Of a stretch of DNA of 64,000 bases, positions 9,869 through 32,927 are shown one piece after another. Source of the stretch: Pirellula sp. (GTDB lineage Bacteria > Planctomycetota > Planctomycetia > Pirellulales > PNKZ01); the NCBI GenBank assembly GCA_013822735.1, contig PNKZ01000009.1, positions 124,001-188,000 on the forward strand. Direction: 5' to 3'. Each line of letters starts with the position of its first letter. The first letter of the stretch is position 1. The notes under the pieces are model-generated. The model was not told the DNA's origin, did no database searches, and worked only from the letters and a program-made list of their open reading frames with translations. The position numbers and the translations under genes were made by a program.

Positions 9869-11203
9869 ATGGTTTACCTGCAACTACGCACGTGGCAACT
9901 CGGGGTAAAAAGCCTCCTGTTGCATCCGCTGCGCTCGTTGCTCACGGTGCTCGGCATCTTCATCGGCACGGCCAGCGTTATCTGGCTCCTGGCGATCGGC
10001 GAAGGCATCAGCTCCAAGGCCCAAGAGCAAATTGCTCAGCTCGGGGCCGACAACATCATCCTCCGCTCCGTGCAACCGATGAGTAACAAAGGAGGCGGCG
10101 GTCGAGCGACGTTCGCCCTCAAGCAGTACGGAATCACGCGCGCCGACTACGACAACCTCGCGCAGATTGAAACGATCTCGCAGGCGGTACGTATCCGTGA
10201 AACCCGTCGGGAATGCAAATACCGCGACCGCATGGAAGATGGCCGCGTCGTCGGTTGCGATCCCGAATACCTCGAACTGAATCGCTTGGTCGTCGATCGC
10301 GGGCACTTCGTTACGGATTCCGAGTTGCGCAGCGAAGACGGCGTATGCATTCTTTCGGCCGAGATGGCGAACAAGCTGTTTCGCTATGAAGACCCGATTG
10401 GGAAGCAGATTCACATCGATAAAGATTACTACGACGTCGTCGGCGTGATGCAGGAGAAGACGGCCACGGCCGCGGTCGGCGGTTCGATGTCGGGCCAAGA
10501 CTTTTCGCAAGACATCTATATTCCTTACACGACGTTCGTGCGCCGCATCGGCGACAAGAACACCTATCACCAGGGAGGTTCGCGGACGAGCGAATACCTG
10601 GAGCTGAATCAGGTGACGCTCAAGGTCGCCCAGCCCGACGACGTCTTGCCGACGGCCGACGCCGTGCGCGCGATGCTCTCAGGTCGACACCACGAAGAGG
10701 ATTATGCCGTCGTCGTGCCGATGGAGTTGCTCGAGCAGGCCAAGAATACCCGGCTCATGTTTATGGTGTTCATGGGCCTGATGGCGGCCGTGTCGCTCGT
10801 CGTGGGCGGCATCGGCATCATGAATATCATGCTTGCTACGGTCACCGAGCGCACTCGTGAAATCGGCATCCGCCGCGCTTTGGGCGCCAAGCGCGGCGAC
10901 ATCACGCGGCAGTTTCTCGTCGAGACGATCGTCATTTCCGTCGCCGGCGGCATCACCGGCGTGCTCGGCGGATTGATCGTCGGTCCCCTCATTCAAGGGT
11001 TGCGTTGGTTTCTGGAGACCTTCATGCAGAGCGCGATGCAGAGCTTGCCGGAGACGATGCGCGACGTCACGCCCATTATCGTTCCCTGGTCGATCCCGCT
11101 CGCCTTCGGCATCTCGATGTTGATCGGCGTCGTGTTCGGCCTTTATCCGGCCCGACGCGCGGCACGAATGAATGTGATCGACGCGCTGCGGCACGTGGCG
11201 TAA
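9869..11203 (+). CDS. MacB-type ABC transporter permease (MacB_PCD plus FtsX domains)
   Basis: 444 residues. The first transmembrane helix (about 20-45, LRSLLTVLGIFIGTASVIWL) leads into a large periplasmic domain (about 50-285), then the FtsX core with three helices at about 290-320, 345-375 and 405-435. The core carries the classic VVGGIGIMNIMLATVTERTR and EIGIRRALGAKRGDI motifs. Together with the ATPase and adaptor it forms a type VII ABC (MacB-like) mechanotransmission pump that drives extrusion of periplasmic substrates such as lipopeptides, toxins or antibiotics through the outer-membrane factor. Substrate cannot be read from sequence. The RREC and GCD Cys residues in the periplasmic region (near residues 114 and 130) may form a disulfide; this is inference. 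Confidence 0.95.
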   Translation: MVYLQLRTWQLGVKSLLLHPLRSLLTVLGIFIGTASVIWLLAIGEGISSKAQEQIAQLGADNIILRSVQPMSNKGGGGRATFALKQYGITRADYDNLAQIETISQAVRIRETRRECKYRDRMEDGRVVGCDPEYLELNRLVVDRGHFVTDSELRSEDGVCILSAEMANKLFRYEDPIGKQIHIDKDYYDVVGVMQEKTATAAVGGSMSGQDFSQDIYIPYTTFVRRIGDKNTYHQGGSRTSEYLELNQVTLKVAQPDDVLPTADAVRAMLSGRHHEEDYAVVVPMELLEQAKNTRLMFMVFMGLMAAVSLVVGGIGIMNIMLATVTERTREIGIRRALGAKRGDITRQFLVETIVISVAGGITGVLGGLIVGPLIQGLRWFLETFMQSAMQSLPETMRDVTPIIVPWSIPLAFGISMLIGVVFGLYPARRAARMNVIDALRHVA

Positions 11204-28272: not shown

Positions 28273-28432
28273 GCCAACGATCGATGAGCTTCCCTGGCGC
28301 CCGCTAGCGAGGGAATTGCCGACGCACAAATTCAAAACGCAACCGGTTTGGTCCCCTCTCCCCGACGAGCGACGCAAGATTTCACACGCGGACAGATTTC
28401 GGGGAGAGGGTTAGGGTGAGGGGCGGAGAACA

Positions 28433-28507
28433 GTTATGAGTTATGAATTGTGAGTGATGAAGGCACGATCGCTATCCTCATAATTCATAACTCCTAACTC
28501 ATCATTC
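28433..28507. repeat. Inverted pair of GTTATGA-type heptamer arrays
   Basis: Left arm 28433-28461 is four 7-mers (GTTATGA, GTTATGA, ATTGTGA, GTGATGA). Right arm 28478-28507 is the matching set in reverse complement (TCATAAT, TCATAAC, TCCTAAC, TCATCAT). Both arms keep a 7-base period although the sequence is AT-rich, unlike the GC-rich arrays nearby. Confidence 0.8.
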
Positions 28508-28614
28508 CCTGTTTCCCCTCACCCCATCCCTCTCCCCGTTGGACGACGTACGGGCAAAAGTCCATTCGCGCACGGGGCGAGGGGGCCGAGCATGGTGGGT
28601 CTAATAATCACTCA

Positions 28615-28690
28615 CGGCACCCGGCACCCGGCACCCGGCGCCTCTCCGCCTACTCACCCCTGACCCCTGTCCCCTGACCCCTGTCCCCTT
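28615..28690. repeat. CGGCACC and TGACCCC/TGTCCCC heptamer arrays
   Basis: 28615-28642 is three exact CGGCACC units plus CGGCGCC. 28654-28690 is five 7-mers alternating TGACCCC and TGTCCCC. Neither has an adjacent inverted partner, although the second is complementary to the GGGGTCA arrays elsewhere. Confidence 0.8.
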
Positions 28691-28874
28691 CTGACCAACC
28701 TCAGGCGGTAACGCGCCAAGCGCCAATACTCTGCCCATCGGATGATTGCACTCGCAAAAATTGCTCGGTCCATTAGCGCGGTGTAAGATCGCGTTAAGGC
28801 CTCAAAGGCAAACGACTAAGGTCGCCGGTGGAGTCGTTGGGGCGAACATTTATATCCCGCGCCGGCGCAAGATA

Positions 28875-28881
28875 GTTAGGC
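28875..28881 (+). other. Left integron recombination half-site GTTAGGC
   Basis: This matches the R' core consensus GTTRRRY, with the crossover expected between G28875 and T28876. No full attC can be folded upstream of it, so it is either the left junction of a cassette inserted at a secondary site or a decayed attI. Confidence 0.7.
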
Positions 28882-29469
28882 GTCAACGAGAGTCTGAAAA
28901 GTGTTGAAGAATGATCGGCGAGCTTTCCTAGACATGGTATCTGGTGACGCGGAGCGCGCTACCGGCGCGGTTGCGTACTTCGATGCCCTTGAGCGCGGGC
29001 ACTTAGAAGAACACCCGCTATCCAAGAAACTGGTGCTCGAGAACATCGATGCGTTGCTGATGCTTTGGCATGAGGGCCGTGTTCCAGGGGGAAGGACATG
29101 GGTGCTTCAATTTGTTGCAGACGCCCACATTGCATCCCTGGCCACTAAGCCGCTGGTGGTATCTGCACTTAGTGAACCATCGTGCGCGTTCCTACCTACG
29201 GTACTTTACCTAATGGGAACAGAGCCTGACCTTTTTTCCGACACAGGACAATACATGCAGGCGCTATCTCGCCACCCGGACCGCGAGGTTCGATGGCGAG
29301 TAGCGTGGTTCATATCGAAACTCAGATATCGCGATGACGAGATGTACGCGGCCATCCAAGTGCTTGAGCAAGATCCTGATCCAACGACGCAGGTCTACGT
29401 CCGAGAGTGCCGGGTAAAGGCCTAACCAATCATTCAAGCCGACGCCTTCGGCGCGGCTTAACTCAATCG
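28876..29469 (+). mobile_element. Single integron gene cassette (594 bp)
   Basis: The unit runs from the crossover point in GTTAGGC at 28875-28881 to the crossover point in the attC R' box at 29469. It contains one gene whose stop codon is inside the attC R'' box, the canonical cassette layout. Its base composition is visibly less GC-rich than the flanking genes. No integron integrase and no second attC is visible in the window, so this is a solitary attC element. Confidence 0.88.
28901..29425 (+). CDS. Integron cassette protein of unknown function, HEAT-like C-terminus
   Basis: 174 residues starting at GTG 28901, only 20 bases inside the cassette, as is usual for cassette genes. The protein is mostly alpha-helical, soluble and without signal peptide. 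The C-terminal part (DREVRWRVAWFISKLRYRDD, then VLEQDPDPTTQVYVRECRV) resembles HEAT-repeat helices. Residues about 30-70 (YFDALERGHLEEHPLSKKLV) look like an imperfect repeat of the same kind. The TAA stop (29423-29425) lies within the attC box GCCTAAC. Many cassette proteins are uncharacterised, and similar HEAT-like ones are sometimes suspected immunity proteins; no function can be assigned from sequence. Confidence 0.82.
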   Translation: MLKNDRRAFLDMVSGDAERATGAVAYFDALERGHLEEHPLSKKLVLENIDALLMLWHEGRVPGGRTWVLQFVADAHIASLATKPLVVSALSEPSCAFLPTVLYLMGTEPDLFSDTGQYMQALSRHPDREVRWRVAWFISKLRYRDDEMYAAIQVLEQDPDPTTQVYVRECRVKA

Positions 29470-29475
29470 TTAGGC
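29420..29475 (+). other. Integron attC recombination site (56 bp)
   Basis: R'' is GCCTAAC (29420-29426) and R' is GTTAGGC (29469-29475), exact reverse complements. Between them AAGCCG and CGGCTT flank an unpaired A and a CGCC/GGCG stem with a TTC loop, giving the folded single-strand hairpin with extrahelical base that integron integrases recognise. The internal sequence CAAGCCGACGCC ... GCGCGGCTTAACTCAA is very close to the attC of mobile aadA-type cassettes. Confidence 0.93.
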
Positions 29476-29738: not shown

Positions 29739-32700
29739 ATGCGGCAGACGCTGCGCCTTTGTTTTTTGCTGTCGGCCTACGCCGTATTGGCAAGCGAATC
29801 GGCGCACGCCCAACTCACCGACCGGCACGTGGCTTCGGAAATCGATTTCGCGCAAGCGATCAGCGACGCCAACGAGAACCCGTCGATCCAGTTTCGCATC
29901 ATTCTCGACACCGACATTACGTTGTCGTCGCCGGTGTTGCCGATCAACCTCCCCGGCACGCTCACCATCGACGGCCGGGGACATAGCATCGACGGCGGCG
30001 GCTCCGTGCGCCCGTTCTTCATCGAAGGGGGCTCCGTCCGCATTGAGAACGTCATCATCGCCAACGGTCTCGCGCAAGGGGGCGGCGGCGGTGCGGGCGC
30101 GGGCGGCGGTCTCGGCGCAGGGGCGGCGATCTTCGTCGACGCCGGCGGGCAGCTCGCGCTGAAGAACGTGCAGTTCGCAAACAACCAAGCGATCGGCGGC
30201 GCCGGCGGAGCGGCGGGCACCGGCGGCGGCGGCGGTGGTCTCGGCGGCAGCGGCTCTTCCGGCAGCGGCGCCGGGGCTGGGGGCGGCGGTGGTTTGTACG
30301 GCGCGGGGGGAAGCTCTTCGGCAGCCGGCGGCGGCGGCGGCGGCGGACAATTCGGCGCGGGGGGCAACGCCAACGGAGCCGGCGGCGGCGGTGGCGGCGG
30401 CGTTTCCACGAGCGGCGGCGATAGTTCCGGGCCAGGCGGAGGAGCCGGCGGCCTCGGTCTGCTCGGCATCGTCACGGTCGGCGGCGACGGCGGTAACGCG
30501 ACCGGAGTTGCCGGCGGCAACGGTAGCACCGGCGGCGGTGGTGGTGGCGGCGGACAAGCCGACGGTGGAGCGGGCGGACTCTTCGGCGGCGGCGGCGGCG
30601 CTGCTGCTCCCTCCGGCGGCACCGACTACAACGGCGGCTTCGGCGGAAACTTCGGCGGCGGCGGCGGCTCCACAACCGGCACCGGCGGCGACGGCGGCTT
30701 CGGCGGCGGCGGCGGCTCGGGCAGCACCGCAGGCGGCTACGGCGGCTTCGGCGCAGGCGGCGGCGGCAGCCTCGGCGGTTCGCCCGGCAGCAGTCAGTTC
30801 GGCGGCGGCGCCGGCGACAGCTCCGGCAACGGCGGCGGCGGTGCGGGCTTCGGCGGCGCCCTCTTCGTCGCCTCGGGCGCGCAGATCGTCATCGAAGGGA
30901 ACGTCGGTTTCACCGGCAACACGGCGACCGCGGGCTCAAGCTCCAGTTCGGGCGCCGTCTCCCTCAGCGACGGCAACGACCTCTTCGTCATGAGCGGCAC
31001 GCAGGTCGTCTTCGATATCGGGCTCAACGACGCGCTTACCTTCGCGCCGGCGCTGGGCAACGACGACGGCTACAACTTCGGCGTCGAACTCGTGAAAGAC
31101 GGGCAGGGGACCCTCACCCTCACCGGCGATAGTCCGTTTATCTCCACCACGTACGTCGATCGCGGGACGCTCGTCGTCAATGGCGCGCTCGGCAGTTTCG
31201 ACATCTTCTCGGGACGTATCAGCCTGCTCGAAGTCGACGACTTCGGCACGCTCGCCGGCACCGGCACGGTGCGCGGCTACGTCGACAACTACGGCCATAT
31301 CTCCCCCGGCACCAACCCCGGCGATATCGGCACGCTCCGCATCGACGGCGTCTATCTGCAAGGCTCCGAAGCGGTGTACGACGTCGACATCAACGCCGCC
31401 GGCCAGAGCGACCGGATCGAAGTGTCGTACGTTGCGCAGCTCACGTGCGGCTGCGGACCGGACGGCGGCGACCTCGTCATTCGCGCCGCGCCGGGCACCT
31501 ACACGCCCGGCCAACGCTACACGATTCTCACAACCGGCTTCGGCGTCTTCGACACGTTCGGCCAAGTCACCACGCAAGGCCTGCCGTACTTCTGGTCGGT
31601 GATGTTGGAGTACGACGCGTTCAACGCCTACCTCGTGCTGAACAACAACGGCCTTGCCGGCGTGGCCCAAACGTTCAACCAATACAACACCTCCGTCGCC
31701 GTGATGAACGAGTCGACGACGACCGACCCGCAACTCGGCGCGGTATTCACGGCGATGACGGGCATGAGCGCCGACGGCAAGCGCGCGGCCCTCGACCAAC
31801 TGAGCGCCGCGCTCTACGGCACGCTCACGAGCGTCGGCTTGCAGAACACCGAAAACTACTTCGGCTCGATCTCGAGCCGGCTCCGCCCCAACGGCGGCGC
31901 CATGCAAACGTTCGGCTTAGTCAATGCCGACGGCTCGGCCCGCGCGTCGAGCGACGAAGCCTTCGGCGATGTCTTTGGTAATAACGAAGACGAACCGTTT
32001 CAACTGGTTTCGTATTCACAGCCGAGCCGCAACACGAACTCCGACACCTACGGCCTCACGGCGACGCGAAGCTCCGGCTCGCGCTCTCCGCGCCGCGGAC
32101 CACCGCGCAACTACGGTTGGGTGGGCGGCTACGGCGTCGGCGGCAACGTCACCGGCGACGGCAACGCGCAAGGCTTCCACTACGGCTTCGGCGGCTCGTC
32201 GGCGGGGGTCGATCGTTACGTCGGCGGCAACACGGTCGTCGGCCTTGCGGGAGGCTATGCCAACACGTCGGTGCACACCGACAATCAACAACAAACGGCG
32301 CAAGTCGACTCGTATCAGGGCGCGCTATACGCGAGCCGCGTGACCGATCGCCGCTACCTGCTCGGCATCTTCGGCTACAACTCCGACTCGTACGACACCA
32401 CGCGGCAACTGCCGGCCAACCTGACGGCCCGGGGCAACTTCGACGGCCATCAACTCGGCACCTACGTCGAGAGCGGCCTGATGCGACGCTGGGGGAATTG
32501 GAACTGGCAGCCGTCGATCGGCATGCAATACATCTCGCTCCGCCAAGACGGCTTCACCGAAACCGGTGCCGGAGGAGCGGGACTGAACGTGCTCGGCCAT
32601 ACGGATGATTCGTTCCGCGGCAACGTCGGCCTCCGGTTCACGCGCCCGACGCAGGTCGCCGGCTTTATGGTCATTCCGAACTTGCATGCCCGCTACGGAC

Positions 32701-32927
32701 ATGAGTTCCTCGACGTCGGGCGCTTCGCCACCGCGAACTTCGCCGGCACGGTCGGCAACGCCTTTACCACGGCCGGCAATCAGCTCGGTCGCAACTTCGG
32801 GCAGTACGGCGTCGGCGTGAATACGGTCTTCACGCGTCACCTCGGCGCTTACGCAGGCTATGACTTACTGACCGCCGAGCGAGCCGTATCGCATACCGGC
32901 AGCGGCGGCCTGCAACTGGCCTGGTAA
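29739..32927 (+). CDS. Glycine-rich autotransporter (type V secretion)
   Basis: 1062 residues. Signal peptide about 1-24 (MRQTLRLCFLLSAYAVLASE). A short beta-helix opening (about 40-115, ITLSSPVLPINLPGTLTIDG) is followed by a Gly-dominated region (about 115-375) of GGxGGGGGxG type. An autotransporter-associated repeat (about 450-480, VKDGQGTLTLTGDSPFISTT, then GTLVVNG) and further beta-helix follow. The C-terminal autotransporter barrel spans about 790-1062 (NYGWVGGYGVGGNVTGDGNA) and ends in LQLAW, the required terminal aromatic. The barrel inserts in the outer membrane and exports the passenger to the cell surface. Passenger function is unknown; the Gly-rich part suggests a structural or adhesive surface fibre. 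The 3' end overlaps the convergent O-antigen ligase gene by 63 bases. Confidence 0.9.
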   Translation: MRQTLRLCFLLSAYAVLASESAHAQLTDRHVASEIDFAQAISDANENPSIQFRIILDTDITLSSPVLPINLPGTLTIDGRGHSIDGGGSVRPFFIEGGSVRIENVIIANGLAQGGGGGAGAGGGLGAGAAIFVDAGGQLALKNVQFANNQAIGGAGGAAGTGGGGGGLGGSGSSGSGAGAGGGGGLYGAGGSSSAAGGGGGGGQFGAGGNANGAGGGGGGGVSTSGGDSSGPGGGAGGLGLLGIVTVGGDGGNATGVAGGNGSTGGGGGGGGQADGGAGGLFGGGGGAAAPSGGTDYNGGFGGNFGGGGGSTTGTGGDGGFGGGGGSGSTAGGYGGFGAGGGGSLGGSPGSSQFGGGAGDSSGNGGGGAGFGGALFVASGAQIVIEGNVGFTGNTATAGSSSSSGAVSLSDGNDLFVMSGTQVVFDIGLNDALTFAPALGNDDGYNFGVELVKDGQGTLTLTGDSPFISTTYVDRGTLVVNGALGSFDIFSGRISLLEVDDFGTLAGTGTVRGYVDNYGHISPGTNPGDIGTLRIDGVYLQGSEAVYDVDINAAGQSDRIEVSYVAQLTCGCGPDGGDLVIRAAPGTYTPGQRYTILTTGFGVFDTFGQVTTQGLPYFWSVMLEYDAFNAYLVLNNNGLAGVAQTFNQYNTSVAVMNESTTTDPQLGAVFTAMTGMSADGKRAALDQLSAALYGTLTSVGLQNTENYFGSISSRLRPNGGAMQTFGLVNADGSARASSDEAFGDVFGNNEDEPFQLVSYSQPSRNTNSDTYGLTATRSSGSRSPRRGPPRNYGWVGGYGVGGNVTGDGNAQGFHYGFGGSSAGVDRYVGGNTVVGLAGGYANTSVHTDNQQQTAQVDSYQGALYASRVTDRRYLLGIFGYNSDSYDTTRQLPANLTARGNFDGHQLGTYVESGLMRRWGNWNWQPSIGMQYISLRQDGFTETGAGGAGLNVLGHTDDSFRGNVGLRFTRPTQVAGFMVIPNLHARYGHEFLDVGRFATANFAGTVGNAFTTAGNQLGRNFGQYGVGVNTVFTRHLGAYAGYDLLTAERAVSHTGSGGLQLAW

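Follow-up and report, generated by a model that had tools for sequence, protein, structure and literature searches.

Integrons typically carry one attI each, a site that is poorly described outside class 1, where IntegronFinder 2.0 does not detect it; by default the program requires two attC sites to call a CALIN, an attC-bearing chromosomal locus with no intI nearby (PMC9024848). Loss of intI was proposed by Cury et al. as one route to CALIN, in a passage quoted in PMC8618304. A published survey located 935 of 941 Xanthomonadales-like (XL) attC sites in Xanthomonadales, and the cassettes with sites of this type include aadA, aadB, aacA, qacF and catB (PMC8352920). The locus described here lies in a 64,000-nucleotide stretch of a planctomycete genome (the window). 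It resembled a CALIN in having an attC-bearing chromosomal cassette without intI nearby but differed in having one attC instead of two and in retaining a recognisable attI with a putative promoter. In common with the XL attC cassettes, the site had the same length class, box sequences, hairpin and arms; it differed in its planctomycete host, in an apical stem-loop that is 4 nt shorter (TTC loop) and in a cassette gene that is not a resistance gene. The array of Stenotrophomonas sp. PS02298 (NZ_JASCOR010000215.1) shared the gene of its first cassette, the gene-attC junction and the attC type, while differing in its number of cassettes and in a left end that falls outside the attI family found here. 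A chromosomal integron in a related genome (G003, contig C4) belonged to the same attI family and had the kind of intact IntI lost from the window genome, but its contig stops before the core, and cassettes are not visible on it. The window cassette with its attI is an ordinary integron part, and the scattering of attI copies is the unusual aspect.

The boundaries of the cassette were read directly from the sequence (Table 1). The earlier note had described a GCCTAAC box and a GTTAGGC box, with a matching GTTAGGC at the left end, and all three were present; its figure of 56 bases was correct as the length of the whole attC and not as the gap between the boxes. The stop codon (TAA, 29423-29425) lies inside the GCCTAAC box, as had been claimed, so that a compact ORF ends within the attC, and G^TTRRRY points delimit the unit. 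Since GTTAGGC by itself is common (3.8 occurrences are expected per strand in the window), proof rests on the whole attC site, in which complementary R'' and R' boxes enclose a structured interior. These observations confirmed that 28876-29469 is one complete integron gene cassette. An Rfam search of the window gave no match. The neighbour on the same strand (29739-32927) encodes a glycine-rich autotransporter of 1,062 aa in which a beta-barrel domain is clearly recognised (PF03797, 176 bits).

Table 1. Positions of the cassette, its attC and the adjoining attI in the window
Feature	Position	Strand	Description
attI with putative cassette promoter	28758..28881	+	about 124 nt; similarity starts at 28753; from blastn, alignments and model R1
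putative cassette promoter Pc	28761..28789	+	TTGCTC and TAAGAT hexamers 17 nt apart, directed into the cassette; predicted
GTTAGGC core	28875..28881	+	read directly; crossover expected between G28875 and T28876
integron gene cassette	28876..29469	+	594 bp between two G^TTAGGC points; ORF plus attC inside
cassette gene	28901..29425	+	174 aa, GTG start
attC	29420..29475	+	56 nt; R'' GCCTAAC 29420-29426, R' GTTAGGC 29469-29475, boxes read directly
attC hairpin	29436..29459	+	stems 29436-29441/29454-29459 and 29443-29446/29450-29453; bulged A29442

Both strands of the attC folded as a hairpin, and the extrahelical A reported previously was identified as A29442, which is bulged on the top strand and corresponds to a T on the bottom strand. 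Each strand of the 56-mer folded with a z score of -4.8, and including the flanks brought the bottom strand to -6.75. A covariance model (R3) was built from Stenotrophomonas and plasmid attC sites only, with the window sequence left out, and gave 62.0 bits for the window attC (E of 1.3e-14 for a 224-kb search space and 4e-13 for the whole genome); the runner-up site in this genome scored 38.9 bits. A second model (R2) included the window attC, and its score of 72.3 bits is not independent. The proposed likeness to aadA-type attC sites was borne out by blastn, with about 80-86% identity to the attC sites of aacA, aadA and aadB cassettes and E values down to 1e-8. With R3, other attC matches in the genus scored 18-41 bits. 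By sequence, the window attC is most probably of the Xanthomonadales-like type found in aadA, aacA and qacF cassettes, the class being assigned with a home-made XL model.

The origin of the cassette was examined by comparison of its gene with those of other genomes. A scan of ~85,000 GTDB genomes, performed with short peptide patterns that pick up close relatives only, found a sole homologue in Stenotrophomonas sp. PS02298 (60% identity, 174/174 residues). This homologue heads a series of five or more cassettes whose attC sites are of the same type as the window attC, and the junction between gene and attC, with the stop codon inside the attC (AAGGCCTAAC), is common to the two cassettes. No real relative was detected in 392 planctomycete genomes, where two matches near an E of 5e-4 covered 64-69 residues, and no homologues were found in plasmids, phages or viral contigs. 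The cassette was lower in GC (55%) than the window (63%), and the GC3 of its gene was 58%, against 71-84% in five neighbouring ORFs. A horizontal, cross-phylum origin of the cassette is well supported by these comparisons. The earlier note had called this exchange recent, and that part was not supported. The two genes were 60% identical at the nucleotide level, which indicates that there was no recent direct exchange, and their third codon positions were saturated, matching at 32%, so that exchange with the lineage of PS02298 was not a recent event. A donor closer than the PS02298 lineage may exist among unsampled organisms. The same note had held that its reading would fall if a covariance search missed the attC or if vertical homologues were conserved in related genomes; R3 recovered the site, and the planctomycete genomes yielded no such homologues.

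The encoded protein was predicted to be entirely helical, with eleven helices (AlphaFold pLDDT of 86 from a two-sequence alignment). Designed armadillo repeats were the nearest structures in a fold search with this model (E of about 1e-3), and HEAT_2 matched the protein below its cut-off. A PDB sequence search returned chance-level matches only, and no match was obtained among defence-system families. The product is likely a small HEAT/ARM-like binding protein.

A DNA comparison with 40 relatives detected a 122-bp segment (28753-28874) that ends directly at the cassette and is repeated on contigs C5 and C6 of the same genome and in sister genomes, with E values down to 1.1e-21. The aligned copies had in common an invariant TTTATATCCCGCGCCGGCGC block followed by a GTTRRRY-like core, which is GTTAGGC in the window copy. 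Elsewhere this element adjoins an intact IntI or IntI stubs in the layout intI, promoter, attI, and therefore the element is an attI: a conserved region between the 5' end of intI and the first cassette that ends in a GTTRRRY core. The window copy lacks 7 nt (ATAACTA) that other copies carry just before the core, so that the sequence beside its GTTAGGC is not intact; this loss may have fixed the cassette in place. The positions of the Pc hexamers and their 17-nt spacing recurred in 10 of the 11 attI copies examined, most commonly as TTGCTC/TAATAT. A strict sigma-70 scan found no site. Judged from the sequence, the 120 bases left of the cassette are a putative promoter plus attI. In several copies, that of the window included, recognisable similarity on the integrase side stopped a short way upstream of the -35 hexamer, and part of intI was retained in others. 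This pattern of loss fits retention of a promoter driving a captured gene, and decay alone could give the same picture. Further left, the window has two nested imperfect inverted repeats with arms of 24 and 23 nt (28400-28538) and CGGCACC-type short repeats (28615-28642).

Scanning with an attI model (R1) detected 14 sites in four genomes of the family: four in this genome (one on C9, two on C5, of which one is partial, and one on C6), six in G003, three in G001 and one in G006. Three of the 14 were partial, two being cut by contig ends and one truncated. Outside those four genomes, none was found among 196 genomes of the order. The G003:C4 copy adjoins an intact IntI of 324 aa (TIGR02249, 373 bits against a cut-off of 265); this contig ends inside the attI, and an intact intI, an attI core and a cassette were consequently never seen on one contig. 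Next to the copy on C6 is a divergent IntI stub that keeps roughly the first 38 codons (PF13495, 36.7 bits, over the cut-off), and a C5 copy adjoins a shorter, degenerate stub. No intI remnant was found beside the window attI, which thus lacks the adjacent intI gene of a complete integron. C2 also carries 35 codons of the IntI N-terminal part, interrupted by a TAG (L024 8304-8408; G000:C2:420303-420407), and no attI was detected beside this stub; its end point is nearly that of the C6 stub. An integrase profile scan found no IntI over the cut-off in the assembly, which is given as 99.06% complete. The two strongest recombinase matches were XerC and XerD, each over its own cut-off, and the rest were weaker matches and IntI N-terminal stubs. 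The absence of an integrase, asserted earlier for the window, thus held for the genome.

Two G003 copies (L122 on C4 and L123 on C3, positions 1-188) were identical over about 142 bp, a stretch that takes in the start of intI, and then diverged, one running on into the intact intI and the other into unrelated sequence. This pair represents either a recent attI duplication or an assembly effect at contig ends. Together with the 14 sites in four related genomes, the pair suggests that attI copies arise anew within genomes. Searches of open-access literature for extra or attI-like sites yielded no report of such scattering, which is weak evidence of novelty.

The earlier statement that no other attC is seen was true of the window and untrue of the genome. 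Sites followed attI copies on C5 and C6 as well as on G001:C23 and G003:C143, and the latter two also had the layout attI, gene, attC. Arrays of two or more cassettes were led by attI on C6, C5 and G003:C143. Two more attC-like sites were observed around a cassette-like ORF on C17 (L080 1000-1560; G000:C17 about 9969-10529), in an array without an integrase; one has a degenerate R' box (GTTTGAC), and one of the two was read by eye. This genome therefore holds several integron remnants. A palindromic repeat of ~45 bp (AAAGGGGACATTCT ... AGAATGTCCCCTTTT) was observed at L022 9177-9214 and 10274-10311, L023 8745-8783 and L072 1603-1641. Its sites are the break of the C6 IntI stub, C5 between a truncated attC and the partial attI, and contig C166 of G006, and it may have helped to break these integrons. 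The repeat was absent from the window.

Cassette anatomy, attI homology, the absence of IntI from the assembly and the foreign nature of the gene and of the attC type were shown. A history that accommodates them would begin with the arrival, in an ancestor of this planctomycete, of a circular cassette composed of the HEAT/ARM-like gene and the Xanthomonadales-like attC. Recombination between its attC and a native attI at G28875^T28876, carried out by an integron integrase, would have placed it so that the gene lay some 110 bp downstream from a resident putative promoter that is presumed to be active. The integrase gene would later have been lost from the locus and from the genome, leaving stubs on C6, C2 and C5, and the window attI would have lost the 7 nt beside its core, this order of events being the probable one. 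The host itself can probably no longer excise the cassette, which would have been kept as an expressed or neutral gene. We consider it very probable that this account, of a foreign cassette inserted by IntI at a native attI with later loss of intI, is correct as a whole. Counting against it, the window attI has neither an intI remnant nor the 7 nt, which leaves some room for insertion elsewhere followed by rearrangement. No empty site was found, and the left flanking gene was absent from the three sister genomes; G005 has this gene, but the other flanking genes are not with it. When the flanks were compared at the DNA level with 40 relatives, short repeats and attI copies were all that matched.

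A variant of this history, not exclusive of it, is that the cassette remains from a longer local array from which all the others were excised or deleted. This is a tentative possibility, suggested by the arrays that other attI copies lead but opposed by the lack of any attC-like remnant beyond the single attC within 6 kb on the right side of the window attI. Carriage or copying of attI and cassette into the locus as one block, by recombination or transposition instead of the action of IntI on site, is less likely and would be quite surprising. The attI copies are scattered, their left ends differ and the G003 pair diverges after its identical portion, all as a block transfer might produce; against this, no flanking transposase or repeat pair marking a transposed block was found at the locus, and the cassette starts exactly at the crossover point. 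The earlier note had regarded the cassette as a single stray one, possibly at a secondary site. It is indeed the single true cassette of the window but not a stray one, as it lies exactly where a native attI with a putative promoter would recombine, this attI being one of four copies (one of them partial) in the genome. That an integrase active elsewhere placed it at a secondary GNT site is highly improbable: this would suit a lone cassette without an adjoining intI remnant and the absence, directly left of the core, of the 7 nt found in other attIs, but the 122 bp on the left belong to the attI family, matching the C5 copy at 79% identity and stopping at the core. A chance inverted repeat in place of an attC, for which only the commonness of GTTAGGC speaks, was rejected on the independent R3 score and on the conservation of the gene-attC junction in Stenotrophomonas.

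Insertion by IntI at a native attI, the history preferred here, would mean that a planctomycete attI captured a cassette with an attC type of clinical resistance genes and that the reach of the cassette pool extends across phyla. A genome without an integrase still keeps several putative promoter-attI units, and an attI can mark an old capture site, a signal for which current integron software does not look outside class 1. A further proposal, which we regard as unlikely, is a distributed integron in which one integrase, when present, serves many scattered promoter-bearing attI sites, each heading a short cassette array. If this were true, attI would duplicate to new places, several loci could capture and express cassettes simultaneously, and the cassettes would stay expressed after loss of the integrase. 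Should the scattered attI sites be usable in trans, the view that each integron has a single attI platform would have to be revised.
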